From a virus, in IMG/VR virus record IMGVR_UViG_3300044701_004080, positions 1 through 29,362 of that record: a DNA stretch of 29,362 nt. The stretch is one strand, 5' to 3'. This document shows, one piece after another, positions 4,058-26,949 of the stretch. The notes under the pieces were generated by a model. That model was not told the DNA's origin. It searched no databases and saw only the letters and a list, made by a program, of their open reading frames with translations. Position 1 is the first letter of the stretch. Each line of letters starts with the position of its first letter. The translations under genes were made by a program, and so were the position numbers.

Positions 4058-4540
4058 TTAAAGAATAACTGGATGATTATAAGATTCTGAAGTTACACTT
4101 GGTAAAGTAGGTTTAATATATTTTGCTGAATTTTTTTCATGCTCCCAAACCTCAATTTGTTCAACCCAAACTCTATTTTCAGTTGCATTCCTAACAAATT
4201 TATCAGAAATATCATAAACCTTTTCTGCAAATTTTTCAATACCTACTCCATCCATAACTATAACCCTAGCTGCATCATTTTTTTCTAATTGATAAAATAA
4301 CTCCAAACAAGGATCATTAGAACTAATAACCAGAGTATGATCAAAAACGTTTTCTAATTCAATTTTTAATTGTTTAAGTCCGCCAAAATCCATAACCCAA
4401 TTGTTTTCATCTAATTTGTTACAAGCAAACCAGATTTTGGATAACAACCTATAACCATGTAAATGACGGCAATGAGATTGTGCTTTTGGTTGTCTAAATG
4501 CGCACGACCCTAATTCAATTATCTTCGTCGATTGATACAT
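4058..4540 (-). CDS. queD: QueD-like 6-carboxytetrahydropterin synthase (divergent subfamily)
   Basis: QueD converts dihydroneopterin triphosphate to 6-carboxy-tetrahydropterin, the step before QueE in 7-deazaguanine synthesis. The T-fold signatures are visible: the HCRHLHGY segment (residues 23-30) with catalytic Cys24, VMDFGGLK (49-56), the catalytic pair FDHT (Asp67-His68), and a substrate-binding Glu around 102. The usual zinc motif CxxLHGH reads CRHLHGY, and the usual upstream zinc His is replaced by Cys13, so the metal site is non-standard. I recall this SCAFRQ...HCR.LHGY form from alphaproteobacterial and phage relatives, so it may be a subfamily trait. The ATG at 4540 lies inside the end of uvsX (26 bp overlap). 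Confidence 0.85.
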   Translation of the reverse strand: MYQSTKIIELGSCAFRQPKAQSHCRHLHGYRLLSKIWFACNKLDENNWVMDFGGLKQLKIELENVFDHTLVISSNDPCLELFYQLEKNDAARVIVMDGVGIEKFAEKVYDISDKFVRNATENRVWVEQIEVWEHEKNSAKYIKPTLPSVTSESYNHPVIL

Positions 4541-6093: not shown

Positions 6094-6747
6094 TTATTCA
6101 ACGGGAGAACCCCATTGTAATGCTTTAGAAATGTTAGGAAAATGCTCAACAAATATTTTTTTAATTTGCTCTGCTATTAAACGATGCTCTAATTGAGTGT
6201 CTGGATTTGTTCTTAAATCTATATAATGTATCCAACTCCTTACAGATCCGTTCATATACAGTGTTGATTCTGTGCTCAACGGTAAAATCATTCTTGCACA
6301 TTCCTTAGCTGCTCCTTTATTTAAAAGATTATTATACAACCTAAGACCATCTTGCAAATACTCTTTAATGGAATTTATTTCTTCTTCATTTAAATCCAAA
6401 ATTTCTGTACTTGATTGTCTATTTTTTTCTGCTTGTTTACGAATATCAAATGAATGTATGTTAGTTGCTGCGCTATATCTTTGACTAAATTCTTGAAAAC
6501 TAAAGCTTCTATGTCTTAAAATTTGAGCAGCTATGGCTCTAGAAGTTGTTATTTCAACAGCAACATTTACCATTTCAAAAGGAGACCAGTGTTTATGGTC
6601 TATTAAATATTTTAATAATTTAGGTCCAGTTTCTGTGTTCAACTGGTTTGATGGATTTGATACTCTTGCACAATAACTTATTAAATCTTCTGCATTAAGA
6701 AGTCCTTCAACACATGGTTTGGTAACGCTTATTAATTTTACTGACAT
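6094..6747 (-). CDS. thyX: Flavin-dependent thymidylate synthase ThyX
   Basis: ThyX makes dTMP from dUMP using methylene-tetrahydrofolate, FAD and NAD(P)H, supplying thymidine for phage DNA. The 217-residue length is typical. The diagnostic RHR-x7-S motif is present at residues 78-88 (RHRSFSFQEFS), followed by QRYS. The C-terminal ESTLYMNGSVRSWIHYIDLR segment (about 159-178) matches the conserved RN..R/H..R substrate region. The ATG at 6747 overlaps the end of the DpdA-like gene by 10 bp. Together they occupy the interval between polymerase and uvsX where T4 carries its own nucleotide-modifying genes (42 and beta-gt). Confidence 0.96.
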   Translation of the reverse strand: MSVKLISVTKPCVEGLLNAEDLISYCARVSNPSNQLNTETGPKLLKYLIDHKHWSPFEMVNVAVEITTSRAIAAQILRHRSFSFQEFSQRYSAATNIHSFDIRKQAEKNRQSSTEILDLNEEEINSIKEYLQDGLRLYNNLLNKGAAKECARMILPLSTESTLYMNGSVRSWIHYIDLRTNPDTQLEHRLIAEQIKKIFVEHFPNISKALQWGSPVE

Positions 6748-7601
6748 AGAATATTTTTCTTAAAAAATTTAACATTCGATTCAATAGTAGACCATTGATC
6801 ATTTGATACAGGCTCATCAAAAATATCTACTATTTTTTCAGTTCTTTTGGTTACGGTATTAATTTGATTGTAATAATCAAGGTTAAAGAAACCTGCTACA
6901 ACTGGATGTGAGGTATCGATAGACTCAATAAAAGAATATCGATAACAATCTGGATGTTTACCATAGGTCCAAAATTCAGTAGGTGTACCACATCCTAACA
7001 AATGATGTTTTTTATGATAATCTATAATTCCATCGTCTATAAATTTATTAATTAAATTATACCTTCCCATACTATATGCTTGTGGTTTTCTTTCTGTTTT
7101 AACGTCTAGAGCATTAATTGCTGGATCGTTTTCTAAAAGATCTTGTTCTAATGCTTGTTGCCAAAAATAATCATATCCAAAGCTGATCGCCACCTTATCT
7201 GCCTGGTCTGCCATAAATTTATATGACTCTACTAGCTCTTCATAAGAGGTTCCTTGTATAACACCCACTCTTTTACTAGGTATCATATGAGTAGGAAATG
7301 TGGTTAAAAATTTTTCAAAACTTTCAAAATTCGCATTTTTATCCTGGAAAACGTCTGGAATTATATATTCATCTGGCTGCAATTTCGTAACCCAATCAAA
7401 ATATTTTTCCCAGTCATATGCATGACCCAATTCATAGGTGCTACAATCCATAATGATACGACGACCGTTTTCTTTAGCTTTAAAGAAAAAATCTCTGTAT
7501 GTTTCATTTTCATCCAATAAATGAACCAAACAGTAGTCGTAGTCTGTAATAGACTGAACTTTATCCATTATTTGTAGTGGTGCTTCGTGTGCTATTAACA
7601 T
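6738..7601 (-). CDS. DpdA/tRNA-guanine transglycosylase-superfamily protein
   Basis: This 287-residue predicted TIM-barrel protein resembles tRNA-guanine transglycosylases and the phage/bacterial DpdA enzymes that swap guanine for a 7-deazaguanine in DNA. Supporting segments are IIMDCSTYELG (49-59, candidate catalytic Asp52), PDVFQD (82-87), RVGVIQGTSYEELVESYKF (111-129), VAISFGYD (137-144), LLGCGTPTEF (201-210) and SFIESIDTS (223-231, candidate nucleophile Asp229). The CxCxxC...H zinc site of tRNA-acting TGTs is not present, which favours the DpdA branch over a tRNA enzyme. QueD and QueE nearby support a 7-deazaguanine role. Superfamily membership is fairly secure, the DNA substrate is inferred. 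ATG at 7601. Confidence 0.75.
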   Translation of the reverse strand: MLIAHEAPLQIMDKVQSITDYDYCLVHLLDENETYRDFFFKAKENGRRIIMDCSTYELGHAYDWEKYFDWVTKLQPDEYIIPDVFQDKNANFESFEKFLTTFPTHMIPSKRVGVIQGTSYEELVESYKFMADQADKVAISFGYDYFWQQALEQDLLENDPAINALDVKTERKPQAYSMGRYNLINKFIDDGIIDYHKKHHLLGCGTPTEFWTYGKHPDCYRYSFIESIDTSHPVVAGFFNLDYYNQINTVTKRTEKIVDIFDEPVSNDQWSTIESNVKFFKKNILCQ

Positions 7602-11545: not shown

Positions 11546-12313
11546 CTAGACTTTCAACGCTTTATCCCAAATAACCAATTGCAAACGTGGAGAAAAGTTT
11601 ACATGCATTGCTTTAGCATATTCGGCTACCGCAGCTGCGTTTTCTGAGTGCTCTTGGCGTGAACCACAGCAAGGCATAAACCAAATTCTACTTTTTGGAA
11701 CTCTAATACCGTGTTCATCTTCTACATATTTTCTCCAAATTTCTTCTATATCTCTATCCGATGTAATAACGAATTTAAACCCTGAATTGTTAAATACATG
11801 CCATTTCAAAACATCTGGTTTATAAGTCTTTTCTTCTGGGTCTCCATTTGTTGTTAATTTTGGTGATGTTGTAAAAGATGCTCCTATTTTGGTTATCCAT
11901 TCTGGATCTGGCATAATAGTCGCATTAGTTTCAAAATCTATTATAGGTGTAAATTTATATCTAATCATAAAAGCTTTGATAAACTTCATCAATTGCTTTT
12001 GTTGGATAATAGGTTCTCCACCTGTTAATTTAAAAATAGCACCTGCTTTTAAATGTTCAATATAATTGTTTTCTTCCATCATTTGGAAGATTTCCTCAAA
12101 AGTCATTTTATTTTTAACTGACCAGGAAATATAAGAATCACATCCATTAGGAGAGTCTGGTGAAGACCATGCATTACAAGTCAAATTACACATCGACAAT
12201 CTCATAAACACTGAAGGTTTGCCTACAAATTCACCTTCTCCTTCTATGGTGTAAAAAACTTTATCATCGCTTAAAAACAAGCTTTCTTCTTTAATATCAA
12301 TATCCATATTCAT
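11546..12313 (-). CDS. queE: QueE-like 7-carboxy-7-deazaguanine synthase (radical SAM) with altered cluster motif
   Basis: QueE is a radical-SAM enzyme that contracts 6-carboxy-tetrahydropterin to 7-carboxy-7-deazaguanine. In this 255-residue protein YTIEGEGEFVGKPSVFMRL (21-39) matches the family N-terminal signature, and LTGGEP (about 96-101) is the SAM-binding GGEP motif. The Fe-S cluster cysteines are unusual: Cys42-x3-Cys46-x11-Cys58, where most radical-SAM proteins have CxxxCxxC. The pattern looks like CNLTCNAW...CDS with about nine residues inserted before the last cysteine. The QueE call stands on the rest of the protein and on queD in the same gene string. ATG at 12313, with a second ATG two codons in; a sigma70-like promoter lies just upstream. 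Confidence 0.87.
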   Translation of the reverse strand: MNMDIDIKEESLFLSDDKVFYTIEGEGEFVGKPSVFMRLSMCNLTCNAWSSPDSPNGCDSYISWSVKNKMTFEEIFQMMEENNYIEHLKAGAIFKLTGGEPIIQQKQLMKFIKAFMIRYKFTPIIDFETNATIMPDPEWITKIGASFTTSPKLTTNGDPEEKTYKPDVLKWHVFNNSGFKFVITSDRDIEEIWRKYVEDEHGIRVPKSRIWFMPCCGSRQEHSENAAAVAEYAKAMHVNFSPRLQLVIWDKALKV

Positions 12314-14169: not shown

Positions 14170-15735
14170 TTAATATATTTTTGCAAAATGTTCACGCCAG
14201 TAATTATATGTTTTGTAATCGTCTGGAGTACCCCAACAAATATAATTTTTAACTTCAAATACTTTCACATTTAAACCTTTTTTAATGTTTTGATTTAAAA
14301 CATCATCTACATAAAACTCTCCATTAGTAGTAATGTTTTGTTTATAATTTTGTTGTAAACCTTCTATAAAATATTTTGCCTTTCTAAAAAACATAGTTCC
14401 TATAATTGCATGAGTTTTTAATGGATCATCGTATATAAACTTTTTACAAGATACATGATGTATATTATCGTTTTCATCCACATCTAACCAAGCATACATA
14501 TTTGGATTCACTTTACTAGTTTGGTTGTTACGAAAAGACCAAACTATAATATCTACATCCTGATCATCTACCAAAGTCTTGTATTTGTCTGCATCGTAAT
14601 AAGCTCCATTATCACAAGCCGTAATCATTATAGGTTTTTCAAGATCTTGTTTGCTTAATTTTAAAGCAATTTCACAAGTACATGCCTGTCCACGGGTTAC
14701 TTCTTTTATAGGAACTATATTACATCTGTTGTAATATTCGGCTAAAAACATTCCGTGATCTATGTCTTTAAAATGTTCTTCCAAAACCGCAAAAGTGTGA
14801 TGTTCACAAGATGGTAAACATTGCGCAGCTCTAATAACCATAGGTATTCCGTCTACCTCTATTAAAGGTTTAGGTTTATCATATCCTTGTTGTTTAAACC
14901 TATCTCCTCTTCCTGCCATTGGCATAATCATGGTTGTATCAGGAGGGTTTGGAACTATTTTTTGACCTTGTTTTATGTTTTTGAAATAAATTGACCAGCC
15001 TTTATATATTTCCAAGTCATAAGGAGTTCCCCATTGCAACATCTTTTCAATTTCAAAGATACCTACTTTTAATCCATCTCTTACTAAAAGATTATAAACC
15101 ATACTAACATAATATTCGCCTTTTAGGTTTAAATCTAAATCCATCAATTCTTTAAAATATTTTTTTAATATACAACCAGATTTAAAATAATATGTTCCGT
15201 TAGAAGCATATTCATCCATTTTATTATCTGTAAAGGGTTCTTTTTCTTTGATTTGTTCTAGAATGTTATTTGTTTCTTTACAAAATGCATAATTGTCACC
15301 TCCTAACATATGTGGGTGAAATCCTTTGTAACAAGGAATTGCTCCGTCATAATCTTTAACAAATTCTAAAAACTTTTCAAAATTCCAAACAGTACCATAA
15401 TCACAATAACTAACTATAACTTCGGCATCATCTTTTATAATATCTTTAATTTGATAAACCGCATCTACAGGTCCTTTTCGATTTTCATTAGAAACTGTAA
15501 CAATTTTACATTCTGGGCAAAGGGATTTTAATATAGAAACTATATTTGTTTCTTCTACATGCTTTTCATTGCAAATAAAGGTAACGTCTTCAATACCCGG
15601 AAATATATCTAAAACGTGTTTAACAATAGGATAACCATCAACCTCTATTAAAGGTTTAGGATCTTTATAACCTGCTTCTACAAATCGTTTCCCTATTCCA
15701 GACATAGGGATTATTAACTGTATTTTTCTCTGCAT
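14170..15735 (-). CDS. Tandem two-domain sugar-phosphate nucleotidyltransferase
   Basis: This 521-residue protein contains two homologous NTP-transferase domains in tandem (about 1-250 and 265-521). Each starts with the nucleotide-binding loop (PMSGIGKRF at 10-18, PMAGRGDRF at 272-280) followed by KPLIEVDG, and each repeats a GEYYV/GEFYVDDV segment and a WGTP segment near its end. Such enzymes couple a sugar phosphate to a nucleotide, giving an NDP- or CDP-sugar. SYCDYG in domain 1 and TACDNG in domain 2 supply the metal-binding Asp. Both domains could be active with different substrates, or one may be structural. It is the last cassette gene before gp46 and follows the GDPD-like gene by 1 bp. 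Confidence 0.88.
   Translation of the reverse strand: MQRKIQLIIPMSGIGKRFVEAGYKDPKPLIEVDGYPIVKHVLDIFPGIEDVTFICNEKHVEETNIVSILKSLCPECKIVTVSNENRKGPVDAVYQIKDIIKDDAEVIVSYCDYGTVWNFEKFLEFVKDYDGAIPCYKGFHPHMLGGDNYAFCKETNNILEQIKEKEPFTDNKMDEYASNGTYYFKSGCILKKYFKELMDLDLNLKGEYYVSMVYNLLVRDGLKVGIFEIEKMLQWGTPYDLEIYKGWSIYFKNIKQGQKIVPNPPDTTMIMPMAGRGDRFKQQGYDKPKPLIEVDGIPMVIRAAQCLPSCEHHTFAVLEEHFKDIDHGMFLAEYYNRCNIVPIKEVTRGQACTCEIALKLSKQDLEKPIMITACDNGAYYDADKYKTLVDDQDVDIIVWSFRNNQTSKVNPNMYAWLDVDENDNIHHVSCKKFIYDDPLKTHAIIGTMFFRKAKYFIEGLQQNYKQNITTNGEFYVDDVLNQNIKKGLNVKVFEVKNYICWGTPDDYKTYNYWREHFAKIY
14855..15660. repeat. Internal direct repeat marking the nucleotidyltransferase duplication
   Basis: An identical 20-bp string occurs at 14855-14874 and 15641-15660 and encodes KPLIEV in both domains of the two-domain nucleotidyltransferase. 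The matching nucleotides as well as residues suggest that the domains arose by tandem duplication within the gene. Confidence 0.6.
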
Positions 15736-15736
15736 A

Positions 15737-16183
15737 TTAAAATATGCAATAATCAGTACAAACTGCGTACACTTTATCTTTATATAGATTTATATGTTGT
15801 ATATCTTCCAATCCTAATAAAGGAATAATACATCTATCATTTAAATCTAATCTTATATCATGAACCCATATATGTCCTGTGCTCATGATAACATAAGGAT
15901 CTTCAACATGACAAAAATGTTTAATATGTTTTTTATCAGATAAAATTTGAGCTGAAGCTATATCTTTACAATGTAACCACAAATAATCTATTCTTTTTTC
16001 TAACCAATTAAAATCAACAGTATAATCACTTGTGTCATGACCTAATTGAAATAAACCTTTTTCATACCTAACATCAATTTCAACTTCATAACCTAATTGG
16101 ATAGCACTGTCAATATAAGAAGGTCGATTTTCTAAATCTGGTTTACGACCTTTTAAATTACCTCTATGTGATATGAATTTCAT
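15737..16183 (-). CDS. Short GDPD-like (glycerophosphodiester phosphodiesterase fold) protein
   Basis: This 148-residue protein has the active-site pattern of the GDPD/PI-PLC superfamily: FISHRGN (His6, Arg7), then GYEVEIDVR (Glu35, Asp37) and QLGHD (His49). True GDPDs are about 240 residues and form a complete TIM barrel, so this is a minimal or truncated form. Similar short proteins occur in bacterial capsule and surface-polysaccharide loci. It might cleave or transfer a glycerophosphate or related phosphodiester in the cassette; the substrate is not readable. ATG at 16183 overlaps the HAD gene stop (ATGA), so the two are probably translated together. Confidence 0.75.
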   Translation of the reverse strand: MKFISHRGNLKGRKPDLENRPSYIDSAIQLGYEVEIDVRYEKGLFQLGHDTSDYTVDFNWLEKRIDYLWLHCKDIASAQILSDKKHIKHFCHVEDPYVIMSTGHIWVHDIRLDLNDRCIIPLLGLEDIQHINLYKDKVYAVCTDYCIF

Positions 16184-16473
16184 AAATTTTCTATATTAAT
16201 ACTTCTATCATCTATAAACAAATCGTAATAAGGTTTATCCACTCTTAGTTCATGGTGTTTTGCTCCCCATTCATTTAATTGTTTTTTAGTTAAATCATAC
16301 CAATTAATTTGTTTACGACTACCTCGAGCAGTCCAGTAAACAATTGTATGTCCTTGATCATACAATTTATTAATTTTTTCTATGTTTTCCTTAATAGGAA
16401 TTGCATCTTCATACTTGCGAGTAGGTGGAGTTTTGCAAATAGTTTCATCAATATCTACATAATAAACTTTCAT
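16180..16473 (-). CDS. Small HAD-family phosphatase
   Basis: This 97-residue minimal HAD hydrolase has the nucleophile motif DIDET (Asp7, Asp9), motif II in YWTARGS (about 46-52, Thr48) and a C-terminal KPYYDLFIDDRS (about 80-91) supplying the conserved lysine and acidic residues. It has almost no cap domain, so it likely acts on an accessible substrate such as a sugar phosphate or a protein- or lipid-linked phosphate. Small HADs of this type are frequent in capsule loci. ATGA overlaps at both ends tie it to the aldolase-like gene upstream and the GDPD-like gene downstream, which suggests consecutive steps in one pathway. Confidence 0.85.
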   Translation of the reverse strand: MKVYYVDIDETICKTPPTRKYEDAIPIKENIEKINKLYDQGHTIVYWTARGSRKQINWYDLTKKQLNEWGAKHHELRVDKPYYDLFIDDRSINIENL

Positions 16474-17129
16474 AATATTTTTTGTCTATATATTTCTTTT
16501 TTGTCGTTGGCTATTTTTTCAATTTGTTTTTGTGTTAAAACAGAAGGTAAACCTAAAAATTCTGCTCCCATAAGAATTTCTGATGCTTTTTCGCAAATTT
16601 GAGTAGCTATTAAACATTCTTTAAAAGTTTTACCACAACATATTATACCGTGGTTTTTTAATAAAATCAATTTGGGAAATTTATTATATTTGTCTTCAAA
16701 ATTTGTAACATTTTTTTCTATAGCTTTTTTTAATTCTATTCCAGGGTGAGCATATTCAACTAAACATGAAATTTCTCCATTAAAAACTACCTGATCTGGA
16801 AATAAACGATCTCTAACCAATTCTTCTGTATGAACCGAGCATAGTATTTTTAAAGTATTAACTGGATGTGTATGCGCTACAAAATTAATATCTTGTTTTT
16901 GCAAAAGCCAATTATGAAAATTAGTTTCCATACTTGGTTTTTTTGAGAAATTTGTTAACTGTTTACCTTCTTTTAAAGAACACTTAATAAGATCTTTTTT
17001 AGATAAGGTTTTTAATTCTGTTCCACTGGCTTTAATATAAAAATTATCACCAATTTTTTGAGACACATTACCTTCGGTTCCGACAACAAAAGGAGACAGA
17101 AAGTGAGCTAGTTCTAATAAATCTTTCAT
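16470..17129 (-). CDS. Class II aldolase / ribulose-5-phosphate 4-epimerase-family enzyme
   Basis: This 219-residue protein of the zinc-dependent aldolase/adducin family includes GTEGNVSQK (17-25) and KASGTEL (33-39) for phosphate binding, Glu68 as likely catalytic acid, the zinc histidines in AHTHP (His86, His88) and the third one in LKNHGI (His160). This matches the Glu/His/His/His arrangement of fuculose-phosphate aldolase and L-ribulose-5-phosphate 4-epimerase; MtnB-like dehydratases share it. The substrate is presumably a ketose 1- or 5-phosphate. It follows a gene with a phosphoribulokinase-like domain by 1 bp, so the two may work on the same pentulose phosphate; that link is inferred. 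Confidence 0.9.
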   Translation of the reverse strand: MKDLLELAHFLSPFVVGTEGNVSQKIGDNFYIKASGTELKTLSKKDLIKCSLKEGKQLTNFSKKPSMETNFHNWLLQKQDINFVAHTHPVNTLKILCSVHTEELVRDRLFPDQVVFNGEISCLVEYAHPGIELKKAIEKNVTNFEDKYNKFPKLILLKNHGIICCGKTFKECLIATQICEKASEILMGAEFLGLPSVLTQKQIEKIANDKKEIYRQKIL

Positions 17130-17130
17130 A

Positions 17131-18579
17131 CTAACTTAATGATAAAATAAAGAAAATTATATAATCGTAAAAATTATCTTGTTTAAATTTATTTTCTCCT
17201 AATAAATTTGAAGATTGAAATTTTAAGAAATTAACGCAATTAAAATTTTCTTCTTGGCTATAGGTAACAGTATACGGAATGTTATAGGATGTTAATTTAG
17301 CTAACACTTCTGTTAAGCTATATTTTTTATTGATTAACAAATTAAGATGTACATTTGGTTCATTTTCTTCTAAAAAGGATTCATCATTTGTATAAAAATT
17401 TACAATAATGTCTGATTCTTTTCTTTGTGGGTATATATACTCTAAATAATCTTTGCTTCTCTTGTCTATTTGATTCTTTACTTCTTCTACAGAATATCCT
17501 CGATTTGTTGAGTCTCTCAATATTTTCCACCTAGTTTTTAATTTAATATCTGTATCTAAAAATATTTTTAAATTATAAACACCTTCGTGTTTATTATAAA
17601 AACTATGTAAACCGCAAACTATTACGTTATCTGATTTATTAATCTCTTCTGGAGATGTAAATTTACCGTTGTTGTGGTCATAATTAACATGATAAACATT
17701 TTTGCCTATTTTTAAATCAAAAATGTCTTTGTTCATTTTAGATATATAATTTGCTTCTGGGTTTAAATGTGTATAATTTTTCCAATTATCATCATGTCTT
17801 TCCCATTTATGGTATCGGTCACATTCTAAAGTAAAAGAATCTGAAAAATATTTCTTTAAAGATTCACTTAATGTAGTTTTTCCAGACCCAGAATCACCAC
17901 AAATAGCAAATATATTACAAGTAGATAATATTACATTATAATCAAGTTTAATTAATTTATACGAAATTTTATAATCATTTAGATAGTAATATAAAAGAGT
18001 TTCAGATATTGGTGTGTTGTATTTTGTAACTAATCTATTTAAATGCTTATAAATTTCAAAATATAAATCCATGCTATGTGAAGACCCATAAGCAAAAATA
18101 TCACAAATATGAGGATCTGTTTGATTTTTTAATTTTGATCTATCAACTACGCTTTCTTCTGGAATGTATATTTGACCCTTTTCTATTTCAGAAAAAACAT
18201 TTTCTTCTATAATGTTTAAATCTGGTCGGTATTTTATAACTAAGTCATAAACCCCTTTGTGGGTTTCGTTGCATAATTTAATTTGATTCAATTTATAATA
18301 TTTTAACCAAAGGTTGTATAAATTGTTTAACTTTTTGTCTTCGTGGAGGTCTAAATTATCTTCTTCTAAAATGGCTATTGGTTTTAAAATTTCTTTAATT
18401 AATTTAATATCTTCTTCTTCATGAGCTGGATTAAAATATTTGTCGTCTTTTAATTCATTTTTTGTAATGTGTATATACACATCAACAACATCGTATTTGT
18501 CTATTATTTTTTGTTTAATTAAAGGTAAATTTACTTTAAACGATCTTAAATAACCGGATATTATTAGAGCTACTCGCAT
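17131..18579 (-). CDS. Glycosyltransferase-like / phosphoribulokinase-like fusion protein
   Basis: This 482-residue protein is read from ATG 18579, 1 bp after the upstream stop; a TTG three codons earlier is less likely. The N-terminal part (about 1-215) starts MRVALIISGYLRSF and contains IKYRPDL and DIFAYGSSHSMD, features I associate with poorly characterised surface-glycan transferase-like proteins. From about 222 a P-loop kinase follows: GDSGSGKT (228-235), ECDRYHKW, YDHNNGKF, IVCGLHSFY, and WKILRDSTNRGYSVEEV with R...DY.EYI.PQ. This order closely tracks plant/cyanobacterial-type phosphoribulokinase. About 80 unassigned residues follow. It probably phosphorylates a pentulose or a related sugar or nucleoside. 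Uridine kinase is the alternative, but the GLH, WKI.RD and RG motifs favour PRK. Confidence 0.82.
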   Translation of the reverse strand: MRVALIISGYLRSFKVNLPLIKQKIIDKYDVVDVYIHITKNELKDDKYFNPAHEEEDIKLIKEILKPIAILEEDNLDLHEDKKLNNLYNLWLKYYKLNQIKLCNETHKGVYDLVIKYRPDLNIIEENVFSEIEKGQIYIPEESVVDRSKLKNQTDPHICDIFAYGSSHSMDLYFEIYKHLNRLVTKYNTPISETLLYYYLNDYKISYKLIKLDYNVILSTCNIFAICGDSGSGKTTLSESLKKYFSDSFTLECDRYHKWERHDDNWKNYTHLNPEANYISKMNKDIFDLKIGKNVYHVNYDHNNGKFTSPEEINKSDNVIVCGLHSFYNKHEGVYNLKIFLDTDIKLKTRWKILRDSTNRGYSVEEVKNQIDKRSKDYLEYIYPQRKESDIIVNFYTNDESFLEENEPNVHLNLLINKKYSLTEVLAKLTSYNIPYTVTYSQEENFNCVNFLKFQSSNLLGENKFKQDNFYDYIIFFILSLS

Positions 18580-18580
18580 A

Positions 18581-19390
18581 TTACGCAAAATTTCGTGATT
18601 TTTCTAAGAGTTTATATTTAGAAACGATATTTTGGTATTCAACAGAACAATCTTTGTAAGACTGTCCAAATTTTGTTACGGGCTTGTGTGGGTCAAATCT
18701 AACAAAAGCTCTGTGATGGGTAATATGAAAAAATTTATATTCGGATACACATTTAAAATAACCACATTCTTCTAAAGAAGTTTTATATAAATTACATACT
18801 TTTAAATTTTCACAATATTGTTGAACTGGAAGATCTTCCATGTCCCTATAAGAAGTCTCTTTAAAGTTTTCTACCATTTTTGTAAAAGATTTAACATTAG
18901 CTATACACGGATTTACATTATATCGATATGTGGTTACACCTTTTTGTTCACTAATATATAAGGTTTCTATAGCTGGTGTAGTTGTTACATCCCATTTGTT
19001 GATTGGTAGGTATAAATCCACTTTTGTAAATTCTGGACCGTTATGTCCACTTGGCTGTAAATTGATTCTATCTATTTGATTTAATTTGGCATAGTCGACG
19101 AGTTTATTTAAAACTTGTATGTTTTTATTTAATAAAATATCAATTTCATGCGAAAAAAGGATGTAATCACTTTTTATATTAGTTAATGTTTCATAAAGCT
19201 TTGCACCATATTGCTGATTATCTTTATATAATAATATTTGTTCATAATGAGCAGACCATTTTTCTAAATCAATATCTGATTCATTAATGATAAGAATTTT
19301 ATTTTTAAAATCTGTTAAATAATCCGTAGCGATTTCTAAACAATCTAAATTGTCTGTGTGAGAATATACTACGAAAGGTATGGTCAACAT
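18581..19390 (-). CDS. Putative glycosyltransferase (GT-A-like), weakly supported
   Basis: This 269-residue protein is read from ATG 19390, 1 bp after the preceding stop. A longer frame from a TTG at 19399 would overlap that stop. A Rossmann-like start (IPFVVYSHTDN) and the segment DYILFSHEIDILL, with acidic residues where GT-A enzymes keep DXD, suggest a glycosyltransferase-like fold. YRDMEDLPVQQYC and FFHITHHRAFVRFD are other distinctive stretches. I cannot place it in a family. Context within the cassette supports a glycan role. It has no signal peptide or membrane segment, so it would act in the host cytoplasm. Confidence 0.65.
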   Translation of the reverse strand: MLTIPFVVYSHTDNLDCLEIATDYLTDFKNKILIINESDIDLEKWSAHYEQILLYKDNQQYGAKLYETLTNIKSDYILFSHEIDILLNKNIQVLNKLVDYAKLNQIDRINLQPSGHNGPEFTKVDLYLPINKWDVTTTPAIETLYISEQKGVTTYRYNVNPCIANVKSFTKMVENFKETSYRDMEDLPVQQYCENLKVCNLYKTSLEECGYFKCVSEYKFFHITHHRAFVRFDPHKPVTKFGQSYKDCSVEYQNIVSKYKLLEKSRNFA

Positions 19391-19391
19391 A

Positions 19392-20174
19392 TCAATCAAC
19401 TATTGACCAATTCGGTAATTCTTTAGGCATCGTACCAACACATCCGCCTAATCTATCTTCATGGCGATGCTCTTTTTGAATAAAAGGGTATAATTTAACT
19501 AGAACGTTTTGTAAAATACTGTTTTTTGCATCTATTAAGTAACAAAATCTCCCCCATAAAGAATCTATTAAATGTATTTCTTTTGCGTTTTGTAATACTT
19601 TAATAAATTCAAACATATTAGGCGTTATACCACCTATGCTTACCACTTTAAAATCGCTTTGAGGGTTTATTGGTCTTTCTTGAGATTCATGAACTAGAAT
19701 ATAATTTTCTCCATGTTCTTTTATAAAATTATCATAAACTTTTTCTTCTAATTCAAAATCTCTTTCAAATTTGAAACAATCTATTAAAACTTCATAATTT
19801 ATATCATAACCAACAAAAAACGCTTCAACAAAATGTTTTGTTCGGCCTTGAGTAGGAACAAATACTCCTCTATATTTGTCTCCCGGAGTTCGAAGGTTAT
19901 CATAATAACCATGAAATAACAAATCGTATTTTGATAAATCAACCATCTGTAAAATTGCTTGGCTATGTATGTTAGATAAAGGAGTGTATAACACACCCAC
20001 ATTTGGTTTATTGCGACAATAAAAATCCACATATCCACTAGCATCTTCTCTCATTATAACTGTAAGTTTCTCATACATTGGAGCATAATAATCAATCAAA
20101 GACAATTGATTTATAATATCCGTAAATCCTTGATGAAAATACAATAGGCCTTCTTTTTTTTCTGGAGTGTTCAT
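19392..20174 (-). CDS. Unknown protein of the glycan cassette, possible GT-B-like transferase
   Basis: This 260-residue protein has no firm family. The N-terminus (LLYFHQGFTDIINQLSLID) looks like the start of a nucleotide-sugar-type Rossmann domain, and the C-terminal half has YILVHESQERPI and KEIHLIDSLWGRFCYLID, reminiscent of GT-B enzymes of the heptosyltransferase sort, where a conserved serine or threonine region contacts the donor. It lies between the GT61 gene (ATGA overlap) and another transferase-like gene, which is the main argument for a glycan function. A 1-bp gap separates its stop from the next ATG. Confidence 0.6.
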   Translation of the reverse strand: MNTPEKKEGLLYFHQGFTDIINQLSLIDYYAPMYEKLTVIMREDASGYVDFYCRNKPNVGVLYTPLSNIHSQAILQMVDLSKYDLLFHGYYDNLRTPGDKYRGVFVPTQGRTKHFVEAFFVGYDINYEVLIDCFKFERDFELEEKVYDNFIKEHGENYILVHESQERPINPQSDFKVVSIGGITPNMFEFIKVLQNAKEIHLIDSLWGRFCYLIDAKNSILQNVLVKLYPFIQKEHRHEDRLGGCVGTMPKELPNWSIVD

Positions 20175-21385
20175 ATTATTTTTTTAAAATTTTCTAAATC
20201 TAATTTCCAAGCACAATTAAGTCCGTTATCTAATTTTTCGCAATCCTTTTTAGGTATAAATTTCTGATTTAAATTCATTTCACTATTCCACCCTGCAACG
20301 GGTCTCTCGGTATAAGATACAAGTAACAAATCATCTTTTATATCTTGCACTTCTCCTACAATATCTCCTGATTTTACCCTCATATATTTTATCCATTCAC
20401 CAGGTTCTGCATGTTCGCTTTTATCATAATAAACTGTATCTTTACCGATAAAACTGTATTTAAATCTTTCGTGTTTTTCTAAAAATGTAGGAGAAATAAG
20501 AATTTTTAATTTTGCATCTTTGTTACTAAACAAAGCATTAACAACCCCTCCACCTATAGCTCCTATAATGTTTTTAGCCTTACTAAAAGTGAGTAATTTT
20601 TCTTCTGTCGACATTTGTTCTGTAAAAATTTCTGTATAATTTTTACTTTTCAGATATTCAACCAAATCATCTTCGTTTATTAATTTTCTACGAGTAGTAT
20701 AATTGGTGCCTATATTTGAATTGTCGTTGTGTATCCAAGTCCTGCGTGAAATGTATATATTTTCTGGTGTTTCTTTATCTAATTTAATATTTGAAACTAT
20801 TTGTTTATAAAAATTGTATATTTCTTCTCTAGGGGGCAGATTTGAATCTATATCATGGGTATAAGAATTAGATATATAAATTTCGGAATATAAAACTTTT
20901 TTTTCAGCTATTATTATATCTTCTTTACTAATGTTTAGTAATTCTAAAAATTCTAAAACAAATTTATAAAATTCTTGTTTACTTTCATTAGGATAATTCA
21001 TTAATAACTTTAAAGAAGGTATTTTATTTTTTAAATAGCGATACGATATTAAATAAGGCAATGTGTCGTATACAAAATGAAAATAATTGTCTGTGTTATA
21101 TAAAAAGAAAAAAACTGGTGTTGGTTCATCTTTTAAAAAAACAAAGTCATTTTTAAAATCTTCATCATTTAAATTTTGAGAAATCTTATCTAAAGACATT
21201 ATTTTTTCTTTTAAAGGTTTATAAGTAACACCGCCAAACAAATCTCTAATTAACACATTAGGATAATAAGTTGAACTCCCTACTAACACTGCTTCCGAGA
21301 GTTTGTATATATTAATTTCCCTACCATTTAAATCTTTAGCTAAAAATGGTATTTTATTCGGTATTTCTGTTAAATCTTTAACCAT
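20171..21385 (-). CDS. GT61-family glycosyltransferase
   Basis: This 404-residue protein carries the GT61 (DUF563) pattern. NTDNYFHFVYDTLPYL (about 96-111) gives the conserved N..H...D.LP segment. IYISRRTW is followed by RRKLINEDDLVEYL, and the C-terminal half carries TFSKAKNIIGAIGGGVVNALFS, the usual AxxxxxxxGxxxxN signature. GT61 includes transferases for xylose, GlcNAc and arabinose in plants and animals, as well as bacterial capsule enzymes, so the sugar cannot be predicted. About 100 residues after the core (about 310-404) are unassigned. ATG at 21385 overlaps the preceding gene by 8 bp. Confidence 0.82.
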   Translation of the reverse strand: MVKDLTEIPNKIPFLAKDLNGREINIYKLSEAVLVGSSTYYPNVLIRDLFGGVTYKPLKEKIMSLDKISQNLNDEDFKNDFVFLKDEPTPVFFFLYNTDNYFHFVYDTLPYLISYRYLKNKIPSLKLLMNYPNESKQEFYKFVLEFLELLNISKEDIIIAEKKVLYSEIYISNSYTHDIDSNLPPREEIYNFYKQIVSNIKLDKETPENIYISRRTWIHNDNSNIGTNYTTRRKLINEDDLVEYLKSKNYTEIFTEQMSTEEKLLTFSKAKNIIGAIGGGVVNALFSNKDAKLKILISPTFLEKHERFKYSFIGKDTVYYDKSEHAEPGEWIKYMRVKSGDIVGEVQDIKDDLLLVSYTERPVAGWNSEMNLNQKFIPKKDCEKLDNGLNCAWKLDLENFKKII

Positions 21386-22064: not shown

Positions 22065-22863
22065 TATAATTAAGATATTCTTTATTGCTTCTTAAATGAT
22101 ATACATTTTTTAAAGATCCTCTGTATAATACAGGTATTATACCGCCATTTCCTGCATGAGTAAAAATTTTATAGCATTTGGATATTATCCTCATAATTGA
22201 TTCAAAATCAACACTCCATTGAACTCTATTACTTTGAGGAAGAACATAGTTTTCGCTAAAAATCATTTCTTCAAATGTAAAAATATTGGGGTTGTATTTT
22301 TCTAAAAATTTATTTTTAAAGTCCAATTCATCAGTTTGAAATAAAATGCGAGAATCTTTATCTAAAATTTTGTCTGTATATTCTATCCACCAGTCAACAG
22401 GTTGTAATTCTGCTTCACGACCTTTATCTGTTCCTCTGTGAAATACTGCTACTGTATTTTCATAATTTATATTATACTTTTGCTCTAGTTGTGTAACTCT
22501 CTGTTGTACAAAATCTGATGGTTGAAAATACGCATCTTCAACCATTTTAACATCTTCCATTTTTAAAAAAGTAAAAGGTATTGCAGTTGGGCACCAATAT
22601 TCAAAATCAAAATCTTTTTCTTTTAATTTTTCTATATTTTCTTGATTTGATTTATAAAGATAAGGGTACAAATCTTCAGTATACCGATACCAATATAAAG
22701 TGTTTATAAATGAAATTTTTTCTGGATATATCTTATAGTTTAACAATCTGCATAAAGAATTGCGAACTTCGTTTATACATGAATAAAACCCAGATTCATG
22801 ATCACCATATAAAATTTTATTATGCTCATCGTAATGGCAATGGGGTAGATATGGTAATTTCAT
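22042..22863 (-). CDS. Fucosyltransferase-like (GT11/GT23-like) protein
   Basis: This 273-residue protein includes VAVFHRGTDKG (138-148), which resembles the HxRRxDK donor-binding motif of GDP-fucose-dependent transferases (NodZ/FUT8 and relatives). It is followed by WWIEYTDKIL...RILFQTDE, similar to their next motif, and by FTHAGNGGIIPVLYRG near the C-terminus. The canonical second arginine is a glycine here, so the donor may differ from GDP-fucose. ATG at 22863 overlaps the preceding stop as ATGA. A GT-B fold and cytoplasmic action are inferred. Confidence 0.62.
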   Translation of the reverse strand: MKLPYLPHCHYDEHNKILYGDHESGFYSCINEVRNSLCRLLNYKIYPEKISFINTLYWYRYTEDLYPYLYKSNQENIEKLKEKDFDFEYWCPTAIPFTFLKMEDVKMVEDAYFQPSDFVQQRVTQLEQKYNINYENTVAVFHRGTDKGREAELQPVDWWIEYTDKILDKDSRILFQTDELDFKNKFLEKYNPNIFTFEEMIFSENYVLPQSNRVQWSVDFESIMRIISKCYKIFTHAGNGGIIPVLYRGSLKNVYHLRSNKEYLNYNEEINNI

Positions 22864-24134
22864 TTATTTGTGGTCGTTGTATTTTTATCAAAAATATAAT
22901 AATGCAGAATTTTATCTATATGTCTTTCTGTTTTTGCTTTTAAACACAATTCTTTTATCCAATGCCAATCTTCAGCCCAAGATATATCTTTAAATTCAAT
23001 TTGTTTAGCTATTTTTGAATTCCACGCACACATATGAAAAGGTTTGCGATAGATAGGCATTCCTGGCACGTATTCTGTGTTTTCATACTGTAAACCGAAA
23101 TATACTATTACAGGCGCATCGGATCCTATTTTAGCTTCTTGATTAAAAGATATTACATCGACACCCGGACACTCTTCAATACTTGATATAATTTCTTTAA
23201 TATAATCTTCTGATATTAAATCATCGTCGTCTAAAAAAGCTAAAAACTTTCCCTCACATGCATTTATCAAGTCTTGTCTTTTGTGCCCAATAGACCTAGC
23301 TTTATTATCCACAAAAGCTAAAATTTCTACCTTTTCTTGACAGTTATTGTCGTTTATTTGTTTTTGAAGTTTATCAAAAATTTCTTTTAATTTTGAAAAT
23401 CTTTCTGGTATACTTGTTATAAGAATTGAAAACAATTTTTTATTGAGCTTATCTAATTCAAAATTTTTAGATTTTCTTTTTTCGTATGTTTCTTTATCAA
23501 CATTATAATATGCTTCATTTCTAACATATAAAGGATCATAAGTTGTTTTTTGGTATACTGGATGTTGGTGTTCTATGATAATTTGCTCTGATTTGTATAC
23601 CTTTTTTAAAATTTGAGAAACTTCTGTAAATTCATTATCACACCATAAGCTTACATAATCTGGATGGTATATATATCCAAACATATCATAATACTTTTTA
23701 CCCATTATACTGAGAGTGTTGATATGATTTTGACCACCATCGTTATACCACAAGACACCATCTAATCTCTTAAAGAAATCATTCATGTCTTTTTTAATAA
23801 CACTATCATACCCATTTACTACAGGTATCATGTCATCAGAAGCTAATAGCAAAATATCCCACCCAGATACCTTTTCCATGTCGGCATTGACTGCTTGTAT
23901 TTTGGTTTTACTTTCTCCAAAAAAATAAACTAATTTAATTCTTTTTTGATATTCTTTTAATCGATTTAAAACTTCTTCATTATTCATACTGTTATCATCA
24001 GTATCTAATGAAATCAAAAACGCCAAACGGCTTGCGTCTGAAGCTTTATTTATATATTCATCAAGAACATTAAAAAATTTCTCTGGTCTTCCTCTAGTAG
24101 GAAATTTTATTAGTAATCTATAGTCTGGTATCAT
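22860..24134 (-). CDS. Two-domain glycosyltransferase (GT-A plus GT2)
   Basis: This 424-residue protein joins two GT-A-type modules. The N-terminal one (about 1-225) begins LLIKFPTRGRPEKF and has LLLASDDMIPV in the DXD position. The C-terminal one (about 233-424) is a compact GT2 domain: FSILITSIPERF, ARSIGHKRQDLI, FLAFLDDDDLIS (metal-binding acids) and AEDWHWIKEL (catalytic acidic region). The C-terminal module parallels the separate 181-residue GT2 protein encoded next to it (SIGSKRNELL, VFVDDDDMVS), so the two are probably paralogues by local duplication. A bifunctional enzyme adding two sugars is possible. ATG at 24134. Confidence 0.82.
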   Translation of the reverse strand: MIPDYRLLIKFPTRGRPEKFFNVLDEYINKASDASRLAFLISLDTDDNSMNNEEVLNRLKEYQKRIKLVYFFGESKTKIQAVNADMEKVSGWDILLLASDDMIPVVNGYDSVIKKDMNDFFKRLDGVLWYNDGGQNHINTLSIMGKKYYDMFGYIYHPDYVSLWCDNEFTEVSQILKKVYKSEQIIIEHQHPVYQKTTYDPLYVRNEAYYNVDKETYEKRKSKNFELDKLNKKLFSILITSIPERFSKLKEIFDKLQKQINDNNCQEKVEILAFVDNKARSIGHKRQDLINACEGKFLAFLDDDDLISEDYIKEIISSIEECPGVDVISFNQEAKIGSDAPVIVYFGLQYENTEYVPGMPIYRKPFHMCAWNSKIAKQIEFKDISWAEDWHWIKELCLKAKTERHIDKILHYYIFDKNTTTTNK

Positions 24135-24135
24135 A

Positions 24136-24681
24136 TCAATAACCGGATGAGGGGTAATAATAATATATTGGTCCTTTAATAAAAACCTCAGTTTTTAATT
24201 TACCTTTCAATCTTTCCGAAAAATCTTGATCTTCTTTATAGTATAGATCGGGGAATCTTACTTCTAAAGCTATTTCTCTTTTAATAGGATTTAAATGATT
24301 AGGACAACGATAATAAATTTCATCTTTTTCAAACCAATGATCAAATTGAAGAGAATGTATAAATTTTTTAGGTCCTATGTTTTTTTGTGTGATTATACCT
24401 TCTATACCACAACAATCCGGTTTATCTTTAATTGCCATTAATATACTCGCAACATAAAATGGAGAAACCATATCATCATCGTCTACAAAAACCACATATT
24501 CACCTTTTGCAGCTTCGAGTAATTCATTGCGTTTTGAACCTATAGACCTTTCTCCGCTATCTAAACTAGCCAACATTTCCACTTCATTGTTGGATTGTAA
24601 TTTTAATACTCGACCAAGATTTTCAAAAATCTGCCTTCTAGATTCTAAGGTACAAGTTAAAATTGATAATTTTTTTGACAT
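24136..24681 (-). CDS. Compact GT2-family glycosyltransferase
   Basis: This 181-residue single-domain GT2-like protein has KLSILTCTLESRR (3-15) as the first strand, ERSIGSKRNELLEAAKGEYVV with VDDDDM as metal-binding motif (about 68-73), PNHLNPIKRE and YYKEDQDFSERL with the catalytic acid region. At 181 residues it is short for GT2 and ends soon after the catalytic region. It is most similar within this window to the C-terminal domain of the 424-residue neighbour. ATG at 24681 lies 1 bp after the upstream GT gene, just past a strong inverted repeat that may affect its translation. Confidence 0.85.
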   Translation of the reverse strand: MSKKLSILTCTLESRRQIFENLGRVLKLQSNNEVEMLASLDSGERSIGSKRNELLEAAKGEYVVFVDDDDMVSPFYVASILMAIKDKPDCCGIEGIITQKNIGPKKFIHSLQFDHWFEKDEIYYRCPNHLNPIKREIALEVRFPDLYYKEDQDFSERLKGKLKTEVFIKGPIYYYYPSSGY

Positions 24682-24682
24682 A

Positions 24683-26161
24683 TTAAAAGTTTACAAGATA
24701 ATGGGTGACATTATCTTGAGAAGATTTGACTTCTAGATATTTTATTAAACTTTTACATTTATTCAATCCGTCATTTTTGTGATAGTCTTCTCCTAAAATT
24801 CCAGATTCATATTCTCTGAATCTTTTACCGTTAGCTAAATGATACTCATTTTCTTTAGGATCATTTAAACGATGGGCATGCGGTACACTAAAAAATTTAC
24901 CGTAAGGATGTTTATACGGATGTAGGTTTTCCTTGACACATCTTGCATATAAATCGTCGTCTTCTTTACCCCATCCATTAAATTCATTACTATAACCATT
25001 GACTTGTTTATAATGTTCTTTTGTAAAAAGAATAACTCCACCCATTATTCGATCTGGTATATTGATATAATTAAATTGACTACAATGACTGCTTATATGA
25101 GAAGGTTTTATCGGGTAACTGTAATCTGATATTTCTGGTATTAAATCTACATCATGAAAACAAACGTAATCTCCAGAGCTTTGTAAAAATCCTACATTAT
25201 TCAAAAGACCTTTATTGAAGGGGTTTTTATTGTTTTGTTCTACTATAATAATTTCAAAGTTTTCAACTTGTGTTGAAACGTATTTTTGCAAAGCTGGTAT
25301 TAATTGGTTTAAAGCTTGTTCTCTGTCTCTATAAGGCACTATAATAGATAATTTTTTATCTTGGTTAATAATTTTTTTCCTGCTGTAATTTGTTTGCAAA
25401 TGTATTAAAGATAACAATAATTTTTTAAGTCCTACATCCGGGATTTCATTTGTAAATTTACCCCATTTTTGTGTAAAATGAGTTGCAGATTTTTGCCAAT
25501 TTTCTTGATACTTTTCTTTATTGGTTATAGAAGAATTGTCACTACTACCTTCAATATCCGTTAAATAATCTTCACTGTTATAAAGGTCTGGAAAATACCA
25601 AAAGGGAGGCGCTACCTTTTTTTGAATTAAATTATAAGCAAAATCTACATGCTCAAAAGCATTAATATAATTTTCATCAAAGTAACCCAATTTTTTAATC
25701 AATTGAGCATTAATATACATAAATGCTCCTTGAGGATTATGATAAAACCCTATTTTAACTCCGTCTGGTTGTTCATGAACATATTTTAAAGACTTCTCAT
25801 TACCTGCTACTTTCTCATAACACAAATGGTGTATACCAGTTGAATTTGCAGCTTTAATATATTCTTCGAAAACTTTAGGGTTTTTAATAATAATATCATC
25901 TTCTATTAAAAATATATGCTCACATCCTAAATCTCTTAATTTTTCAAGCGCTTTGTTTTTAGATTTTGCAACTCCCAATTGTTTATTATTGTGTATAACA
26001 ATTTCCGCGTCTTTAGGGTCTACATATACATTTTCACCGTCATTGACTATAACAATTTTATCTACACAATCTTTCGGAATAGAATCATAAACTTTTTTAT
26101 AATAATCTGGTCTATTATATGTAATAATCCCTATTCCTATTCTTGATGGTACTGTTTCCAT
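24683..26161 (-). CDS. Glycosyltransferase fusion: GT2-like domain plus GT7 galactosyltransferase-like domain
   Basis: This 492-residue protein has an N-terminal domain (about 1-250) that is GT-A type with RIGIGIITYNRPDYY and IFLIEDDIII (Glu87-Asp88-Asp89), paralogous to the 270-residue neighbour. The C-terminal domain (about 268-470) has the hallmarks of beta-1,4-galactosyltransferases (GT7): VPYRDRE (275-281), FNKGLLNNVGF (315-325), FHDVDLIPE (335-343), a GGV.LF..E.Y..VNGYSNEF segment, GWGKEDDDLYAR (396-407) and a possible metal His in PHAHR. All key acids are present. GT7 enzymes transfer Gal, GalNAc or similar sugars. ATG at 26161 lies in the end of the upstream gene (25 bp overlap). Confidence 0.88.
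   Translation of the reverse strand: METVPSRIGIGIITYNRPDYYKKVYDSIPKDCVDKIVIVNDGENVYVDPKDAEIVIHNNKQLGVAKSKNKALEKLRDLGCEHIFLIEDDIIIKNPKVFEEYIKAANSTGIHHLCYEKVAGNEKSLKYVHEQPDGVKIGFYHNPQGAFMYINAQLIKKLGYFDENYINAFEHVDFAYNLIQKKVAPPFWYFPDLYNSEDYLTDIEGSSDNSSITNKEKYQENWQKSATHFTQKWGKFTNEIPDVGLKKLLLSLIHLQTNYSRKKIINQDKKLSIIVPYRDREQALNQLIPALQKYVSTQVENFEIIIVEQNNKNPFNKGLLNNVGFLQSSGDYVCFHDVDLIPEISDYSYPIKPSHISSHCSQFNYINIPDRIMGGVILFTKEHYKQVNGYSNEFNGWGKEDDDLYARCVKENLHPYKHPYGKFFSVPHAHRLNDPKENEYHLANGKRFREYESGILGEDYHKNDGLNKCKSLIKYLEVKSSQDNVTHYLVNF
24694..24718. other. Perfect 10-bp inverted repeat before a gene junction
   Basis: Arms CAAGATAATG (24694-24703) and CATTATCTTG (24709-24718) pair perfectly around a 5-base loop. 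It forms the last codons of the GT2/GT7 fusion gene, ending 8 bp before its stop and 12 bp before the next ATG. Only a short TTTT follows in the transcribed direction, so it is not a canonical intrinsic terminator. It could damp translation of the next gene, be an RNA-processing or stability element, or serve as an attenuator. Confidence 0.6.
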
Positions 26162-26724
26162 ATAATTTTTAAATTATCTAATACTTCTTGTTCTGTATAA
26201 TTTTTTTCAGTTGGACCGTATCCGTGTACAACTGAAAATTTGTTTTTCTCAATGAAAAGATCCAATGCTTTTTGAAAATTTTTCATAAAGTCTGATTCAT
26301 TTCTAATTTTTGATTGTTGATGGTCTGGGACAGTATCTTTTAAGTATTTGTTTGCCCCGTTTACATCTGCAAACCATCGAAAAGGAGGATGATAACCTTC
26401 TTTAATAATTTGATATGTATGATCTACGTGCTCTAATGCATTATAGAAATTTTCATCCATTAATCCAGCTTTAACAAAAACATCTTTATGATAATAGCTA
26501 AACGCTCCTAAAACATTAGGATATAAATCTATTTTAGTATTATCCGGATAATTTACAGTCTTGCGAATGGTAGGATTACCATAAGAATCAAGATTATGAT
26601 TACCGTGTAAACCGAAATTAAAATGTTTAATGCCCGTTGATTGAGATGCTTTAATATATAAATCAAAAATTTTTTCATCTAATATTTCTATATCATCTTC
26701 CATTAAAAATATATGCTCACATCC
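25893..26724. repeat. Pair of 35-bp near-identical direct repeats in adjacent glycosyltransferase genes
   Basis: The stretches 25893-25927 and 26690-26724 differ at one position out of 35 and encode the CEHIFL(I/M)EDDI segment that carries the metal-binding acids in two neighbouring GT genes. The rest of the genes is more diverged. This points to a fairly recent tandem duplication or to local gene conversion. Confidence 0.7.
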
Positions 26725-26949
26725 GTGGTTTAACAAATAATTTAAAGCTTTATTTTTAGCTTTACCTACACCGCTTTTAGGTTGGTCTGTATCTATTTTA
26801 TCTATCAAAGTCTCAACTTTAGATTCGCCGTCATCTACAACAACTTTAATACAATCAAGTTTGTAAATAGAATCTCCTGATTTTTTAAAAAAATCCGGCC
26901 TATCACAAGTTATTAAACCTAAACCAATTTTATAATTCGGGACGGGCAT
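26137..26949 (-). CDS. GT2-like glycosyltransferase (tandem paralogue 2)
   Basis: This 270-residue GT-A-type protein contains YKIGLGLITCDRPDFF (6-21), VVVDDGES (36-43), SGVGKAKNKALNYL, IFLMEDDIEI (80-89, metal-binding Glu84-Asp85-Asp86) and NALEHVDHTYQI, a likely catalytic-acid region. It is collinear with the N-terminal domain of the next gene (24683-26161) and more distantly with the preceding one. Its acidic residues are intact, so it should be active. The ATG at 26949 overlaps the upstream gene by 20 bp. Donor sugar and acceptor unknown. Confidence 0.82.
   Translation of the reverse strand: MPVPNYKIGLGLITCDRPDFFKKSGDSIYKLDCIKVVVDDGESKVETLIDKIDTDQPKSGVGKAKNKALNYLLNHGCEHIFLMEDDIEILDEKIFDLYIKASQSTGIKHFNFGLHGNHNLDSYGNPTIRKTVNYPDNTKIDLYPNVLGAFSYYHKDVFVKAGLMDENFYNALEHVDHTYQIIKEGYHPPFRWFADVNGANKYLKDTVPDHQQSKIRNESDFMKNFQKALDLFIEKNKFSVVHGYGPTEKNYTEQEVLDNLKIIWKQYHQE

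Follow-up and report, generated by a model that had tools for sequence, protein, structure and literature searches.

Enzyme sets that resemble parts of the locus described here are known from several settings. The NDP-heptose pathways (GmhA-HddA-GmhB-HddC) employ a kinase, a HAD phosphatase and a nucleotidyltransferase in that order, with HddA being a GHMP-type kinase. The class II phosphoribulokinases (PRKs) include cyanobacteria-specific enzymes (9qko, 9qkn). In bacteria such as Yersinia, Pseudomonas, Azospirillum and Lachnospiraceae, a protein of ~700 aa labelled ‘phosphoribulokinase/uridine kinase’ is encoded in an operon with an aldolase, a nucleotidyltransferase and a glycerophosphodiester-phosphodiesterase-like (GDPD-like) protein. 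In haloarchaea, the non-carboxylating pentose bisphosphate pathway uses a ribulose-1,5-bisphosphate (RuBP) 5-phosphatase whose product, ribulose 1-phosphate, goes to a FucA-type aldolase (PMC9700705). In the CDP-6-fructose/CDP-glucitol route of Campylobacter HS:5, the ketose phosphate that a nucleotidyltransferase activates for surface-glycan synthesis is non-anomeric (PMC10918830). Viral phosphoribulokinase genes, for their part, have been read in viromes as genes of carbon fixation or photosynthesis (PMC11421388, PMC10732071, PMC13390420). We found no published description, in the open-access literature, of the gene combination reported below.

The window, the whole 29,362-base stretch of viral DNA that was analysed, contains a long minus-strand run of glycan genes flanked by T4-type replication genes (UvsX-like recombinase, DnaB-like helicase, SbcD-like subunit and late sigma factor). 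One gene on this strand encodes a protein of two domains:

17131–18579, minus strand: fusion protein of 482 aa with a GT-A-like domain and a PRK-family kinase (open frame, PF00485, structure, in-frame homologues)
17935–18579, minus strand: residues 1–215, GT-A glycosyltransferase-like domain (VIA-align Z 13.3 to BoGT6a, 4ayl; phrog_13607)
17134–17934, minus strand: residues 216–482, PRK-family kinase domain including a C-terminal PRK-like extension (PF00485, Z 24.1 to 9qko, trees)

The reading frame is free of stops and gives 482 residues from an ATG at 18579; a longer product from a TTG at 18588 is possible. Scanning viral contigs with a single protein returned no matches, and tblastn with the N-terminal domain found none in named phages. 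With a degenerate query derived from an alignment, the scan yielded 75 loci. The phage collection also gave Salmonella matches, which are chromosomal prkB adjoining crp and irrelevant here. The initial annotation had described a fusion of a glycosyltransferase-like and a PRK-like domain and had raised the possibility of a frameshift joining two genes. The same architecture recurs: in 53 of the 75 loci, all from other viral contigs, the two halves share a single open frame (30 fusions after dereplication at ~90%), and a frameshift near 17900 is therefore ruled out. The product is an intact two-domain protein, with the glycosyltransferase-like half first and the kinase half second.

The N-terminal half is poorly represented in family collections. 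Residues 1–215 match no Pfam family, and no Pfam glycosyltransferase family at E values up to 0.1; the sole family match, over residues 1–197, is phrog_13607, whose function is unknown (2e-9). An AlphaFold2 model of the fusion built from 31 homologues has a mean pLDDT of 85. Residues 1–223 of this model superpose on BoGT6a (Z 13.3, 184 residues aligned) and on COLGALT1 (Z 12.5), indicating a predicted GT-A glycosyltransferase fold, in agreement with the initial annotation of this half. The top viral matches are mostly uncharacterised proteins of phages and giant viruses, alongside some annotated glycosyltransferases. For the second half, residues 219–482, the best structural match is the cyanobacteria-specific PRK 9qko (Z 24.1 over 253 residues), compared with Z values of ~19–22 for other class II PRKs and ~17–19, over 188 residues, for uridine kinases.

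Sequence scores place the kinase half nearer to PRK than to uridine kinase, as the initial annotation had proposed. PF00485, the PRK/uridine kinase family, is matched at residues 223–394 (7e-34, 117.7 bits, cutoff 22), and the PRK motifs noted previously are all present: GDSGSGKT, CDRYH, YDHNNGKF, GLHSFY, WKILRDSTNRG and YIYPQ. The best NCBIfam model is the phosphoribulokinase model NF005655, at 175.5 bits, below its cutoff of 236; bacterial relatives score 193–212 bits against it. The uridine kinase models also fall below their cutoffs, with 61.7 bits for TIGR00235 (udk; cutoff 220) and 70.9 bits for NF004018 (PRK05480; cutoff 180). Among relatives of solved structure, the top seven chains, at 88–109 bits, are phosphoribulokinases, one of which is labelled uridine kinase, and the uridine-cytidine kinases reach ~30 bits.

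The branches of PrkB and uridine kinase were long in the first kinase tree, which was therefore rebuilt with 48 kinases, leaving out PrkB and adding a second uridine kinase. In the rebuilt tree, the kinases that belong to the gene cassette described below form one clade (support 100/98) with respect to class II PRKs, the cyanobacteria-specific PRK and its relatives, and the two uridine kinases. This clade stands beside the class II PRKs, outside the uridine kinases but also separate from the true PRKs. In the first tree, the phage fusions form a clade (100/98) inside the phage kinases, and the group nearest to the phage kinases has members from Lachnospiraceae, Melainabacteria and Bdellovibrionales (95/84).

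The active site is of the PRK type. All 53 fusions compared, the window included, share residues D254, H257, R261, H302, K352, R355 and R360, which are also conserved in the PRKs compared; in a Yersinia uridine kinase, the positions of H257, R261, H302 and K352 are occupied by Y, S, Y and R. The spacing of the fusion residues agrees with that of the known PRK residues D42, H45, R49, K165, R168 and R173 (Rhodobacter numbering). Little or no variation is seen across more than 140 proteins at the P-loop lysine, the catalytic Asp254 and the phosphosugar residues. One position departs from both families: the Walker-B-type glutamate of the EGLH motif, present in PRK and uridine kinase, is replaced at C322 by cysteine in 52 of 53 fusions and by serine in the other, and the bacterial relatives mostly have serine or cysteine there. 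As judged from this replacement, the kinase reaction may differ from that of PRK or be weak. Trp259 and Trp266 are specific to the cassette clade. Thus the C-terminal half resembles class II PRKs in its whole fold, P-loop, catalytic aspartate and Ru5P-type residues, but the fusion adds the N-terminal GT-A domain and the two tryptophans, lacks the glutamate, belongs to a separate clade and lies in a glycan cassette.

This cassette consists of the kinase, a class II aldolase, a HAD phosphatase, a GDPD-like protein and a tandem nucleotidyltransferase. Listed with two further neighbours, in the order in which they lie in the window, the genes are as follows; counts refer to the 30 dereplicated fusions and, for the four cassette partners of the kinase, to genes on the same strand within ~8 kb:

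14170–15735, minus strand: tandem sugar-phosphate nucleotidyltransferase (NTP2) with two NTP-transferase halves (PF12804/PF00483); near 28 of 30
15737–16183, minus strand: compact GDPD-like protein (model pLDDT 95, Z 11.2 to 1o1z); near 30 of 30
16180–16473, minus strand: small HAD phosphatase, EcbF/BcbF-like (TIGR01689 3e-7, below cutoff; phrog_1238 6e-29); near 30 of 30
16470–17129, minus strand: class II aldolase of the cassette (PF00596, 1.7e-27); near 28 of 30
17131–18579, minus strand: the fusion
18581–19399, minus strand: frequent neighbour of unknown function with no Pfam match; near 25 of 30
20171–21385, minus strand: GT61 glycosyltransferase associated with the cassette (PF04577, 1e-16); near 29 of 30

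The two fusion loci without a nearby aldolase are L002 and L029, and the replication genes that flank the fusion loci mostly differ from one locus to another. The cassette aldolases are FucA-like and retain the catalytic glutamate and three zinc-binding histidines; Glu68, His86, His88 and His160 are invariant from phage to bacteria. The window aldolase scores 55 bits against the ribulose 1-phosphate aldolase equivalog, whose cutoff is 300. Each half of the nucleotidyltransferase has a GxGxRF motif (residues 9 and 271). The GDPD-like protein has both the GDPD fold and the His-Arg, Glu-x-Asp and His motif, and its residues His6, Arg7, Glu35, Asp37, His49 and Lys73 do not vary between phages and bacteria. 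Based on this conservation of modelled fold and motif, it probably handles a sugar phosphodiester, a role without a clear place in the scheme proposed below. The cyanophages S-SM2 and Bellamy carry NTP2, GT61, aldolase, HAD and GDPD-like genes together, with GT61 adjoining the aldolase; no kinase of this type was identified in these two cassettes.

Elsewhere in the window, a row of glycosyltransferase-like proteins, some with two domains, occupies 22860–26949 and includes a GT7-like protein at 24683–26161. QueD-like and QueE-like genes at 4058–4540 and 11546–12313 suggest 7-deazaguanine synthesis, possibly for DNA modification in this phage. A protein of 287 aa (6738–7601) matches only phrog_19058 and phrog_20335, both of unknown function, and looks DpdA/TGT-like by eye.

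The kinase also occurs in other arrangements. It stands alone in more distant contigs (L051, L054–L059, L061, L062, L064), and among the contigs checked the GT domain was not found beside these stand-alone kinases. In a further group of viral contigs (L065–L074), kinase and class II aldolase are fused in one open reading frame. The GT-A-like domain is found in these loci essentially only as part of the fusion. It is dispensable, as related phages carry the kinase alone in the same cassette.

A homologous enzyme set is present in bacteria. A genome scan for relatives gave 80 loci. Among 63 operon loci counted, the nucleotidyltransferase is found in 57, the aldolase in 52, and the HAD and the GDPD-like protein in 51 each; in 39 of the 63, all five enzymes lie within the fetched stretch. 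Hosts include Lachnospiraceae, Yersinia, Pseudomonas, Lysobacter, Bdellovibrionales, Bacteroidota, Patescibacteria and Chloroflexota. Clustering of the open reading frames shows that the bacterial kinase is the C-terminal part of the ~700 aa protein, whose N-terminal part has ~9 predicted membrane helices and a weak match to ALG3. Kinase, aldolase, nucleotidyltransferase and GDPD-like protein are homologous to those of the phage, a HAD phosphatase is present, and the kinase is likewise joined to a glycosyltransferase-like domain. The operon differs from the phage cassette in the membrane nature of the partner domain, in the HAD, which is of another family than that of the phage (97 aa), and in the addition of GT2 and often GtrA genes. 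Glycosyltransferase-like domains have therefore been joined to the cassette kinase at least twice, in different forms, a GT-A domain in phages and a membrane domain in bacteria.

Several copies of the operon are on plasmids. In E. coli plasmid p5-S1-CAM-01-A (33 kb; L179:3518–15857), the whole operon lies between IS26 transposase genes, one frameshifted and one intact; a second E. coli plasmid, from strain ES3, also matches the operon, and Azospirillum brasilense plasmid p5 has the complete enzyme set. In Yersinia, a gene that follows scores 123.6 bits, against a cutoff of 150, with the model NF046093 (‘cell surface glycopolymer formation protein’). As a separate observation, Yersinia YPTB3726 is a phosphoribulokinase/uridine kinase from an LPS-related screen, with no link to the cassette implied. 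The viral contigs are fragments, and two from IMG/VR, L060 and L076, contain all seven genes of the bacterial operon and may for that reason be host or prophage DNA.

What sugar might this set of enzymes act on? A model of the haloarchaeal RuBP 5-phosphatase is matched by 22 of 23 bacterial cassette HADs, with a best E value of 6e-56; no family scores higher with the HAD of locus L155, whose 168 bits fall short of the cutoff of 330. Nucleotidyltransferase fusions in phages provide further clues. In Bellamy, gp206 (L078:4136–5293) joins a nucleotidyltransferase to an RpiB/LacAB isomerase domain; in the glycan region of Synechococcus phage S-SKS1 (L081:5001–6428), a nucleotidyltransferase domain is joined to DHBP synthase (PF00926, 5e-65); and in cyanophage S-CAM9, a nucleotidyltransferase relative is fused to a HAD phosphatase. 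RpiB and DHBP synthase both use ribulose 5-phosphate (Ru5P). The HAD, the aldolase and the nucleotidyltransferase fusions, each circumstantial, converge on Ru5P chemistry, and we put the chance that the kinase substrate is Ru5P or a near isomer at about even.

The cassette very likely constitutes one glycan-precursor pathway. As the best explanation of the gene itself, we suggest that its product is probably one of five enzymes in a mobile pathway leading to a nucleotide-activated building block of a surface glycan. We infer the following order of steps. With ATP as phosphate donor, the PRK-like domain would convert a sugar phosphate, most likely Ru5P or a close relative, into a bisphosphate. 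The HAD phosphatase would then take off the original phosphate and leave the new one, as in ribulose 1-phosphate, and the class II aldolase would epimerise, cleave or rebuild the ketose 1-phosphate. The remaining phosphate would be activated by the tandem nucleotidyltransferase, and the fused GT-A domain together with neighbouring transferases (GT61 and others) would add the residue to a glycan of the phage or host surface. As the product, we tentatively suggest a nucleotide-activated ketose or ketose-derived phosphate. The haloarchaeal pathway resembles this scheme in its RuBP 5-phosphatase-like HAD and class II aldolase step, but it is catabolic, obtains RuBP from R15P isomerase and has neither nucleotidyltransferase nor glycosyltransferase (PMC9700705); the Campylobacter route lacks the kinase, aldolase and phosphatase steps (PMC10918830).

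The scheme changes how the fusion is read. The initial annotation had pictured a repurposed PRK making an activated precursor for the transferase beside it. Repurposing into a glycan pathway agrees with our results, and the pairing of kinase and transferase is real, but it is not a one-off: it is part of a conserved five-enzyme cassette common to phages and bacteria. Since phosphatase, aldolase and nucleotidyltransferase travel with the kinase, several steps probably separate its reaction from the later formation of the activated donor, and direct hand-over to the fused transferase is therefore unlikely.

The same kind of cassette could instead serve another sugar, a heptulose, hexulose or aldose phosphate, by the logic of GmhA-HddA-GmhB-HddC. 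The order of chemistry is the same (sugar-phosphate enzyme, kinase, HAD phosphatase, nucleotidyltransferase), the EcbF/BcbF-like phage HAD falls in phrog_1238, which is annotated as phosphoheptose isomerase, and S-SM2 and Bellamy have other sugar kinase and nucleotidyltransferase genes nearby. However, the cassette kinase has a PRK-type pocket, and the aldolase and the GDPD-like protein are additional to the NDP-heptose set. The bacterial HADs lean towards RuBP 5-phosphatase and the fusions with RpiB and DHBP synthase suggest Ru5P, so that another sugar seems to us rather unlikely. The loss of the Walker-B-type glutamate, with C322 in nearly all fusions and serine or cysteine in most bacterial relatives, would also fit a catalytically dead kinase domain kept as a binding or regulatory module. 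We consider this improbable, given the near-invariance of the P-loop lysine, Asp254 and the phosphosugar residues, and the retention of the glutamate in nine of the ten kinase-aldolase fusions.

Two further readings follow from family membership. A phosphoribulokinase acting as an auxiliary metabolic gene for the host Calvin cycle would accord with the PRK family match and with the way viral PRK or prkB genes have been read (PMC11421388) or grouped with photosynthesis genes (PMC10732071, PMC13390420). Against it, the kinase sits among glycan enzymes in a clade separate from PRKs, relatives occur in heterotrophs such as Lachnospiraceae and Yersinia, and no RuBisCO_large or Photo_RC (psbA-type) match was found in 20 related phage contigs of 59–385 kb, which are possibly incomplete; we hold this role to be very improbable. 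Still harder to sustain is a uridine kinase or nucleoside-salvage enzyme, which the shared Pfam superfamily and the annotation of some relatives as uridine kinase might suggest. The scores (62–71 bits for uridine kinase models, 175 for PRK), the four substituted positions in the Yersinia uridine kinase and a tree in which the cassette clade excludes the two uridine kinases used make it extremely improbable.

We return to the glycan-precursor pathway and its implications. A glycan cassette is the setting of at least one large class of PRK-like genes in phages, and the virome genes of the cited papers may be of other clades; the neighbours of phage PRK-like genes should be checked before such genes are read as carbon fixation. 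The occurrence of the enzyme set in bacteria, including the IS26-flanked copy on the E. coli plasmid, suggests that a surface-sugar pathway of this kind is widespread. It is conceivable, if somewhat short of an even chance, that phages and many bacterial phyla share a pathway, also plasmid-borne, that would lead from Ru5P to a nucleotide-activated ketose phosphate or ketose-derived phosphate, and so to a glycan residue without known biosynthesis. Phages carrying a whole precursor pathway, and not transferases alone, would bring their own sugar for modification of the virion or host surface.
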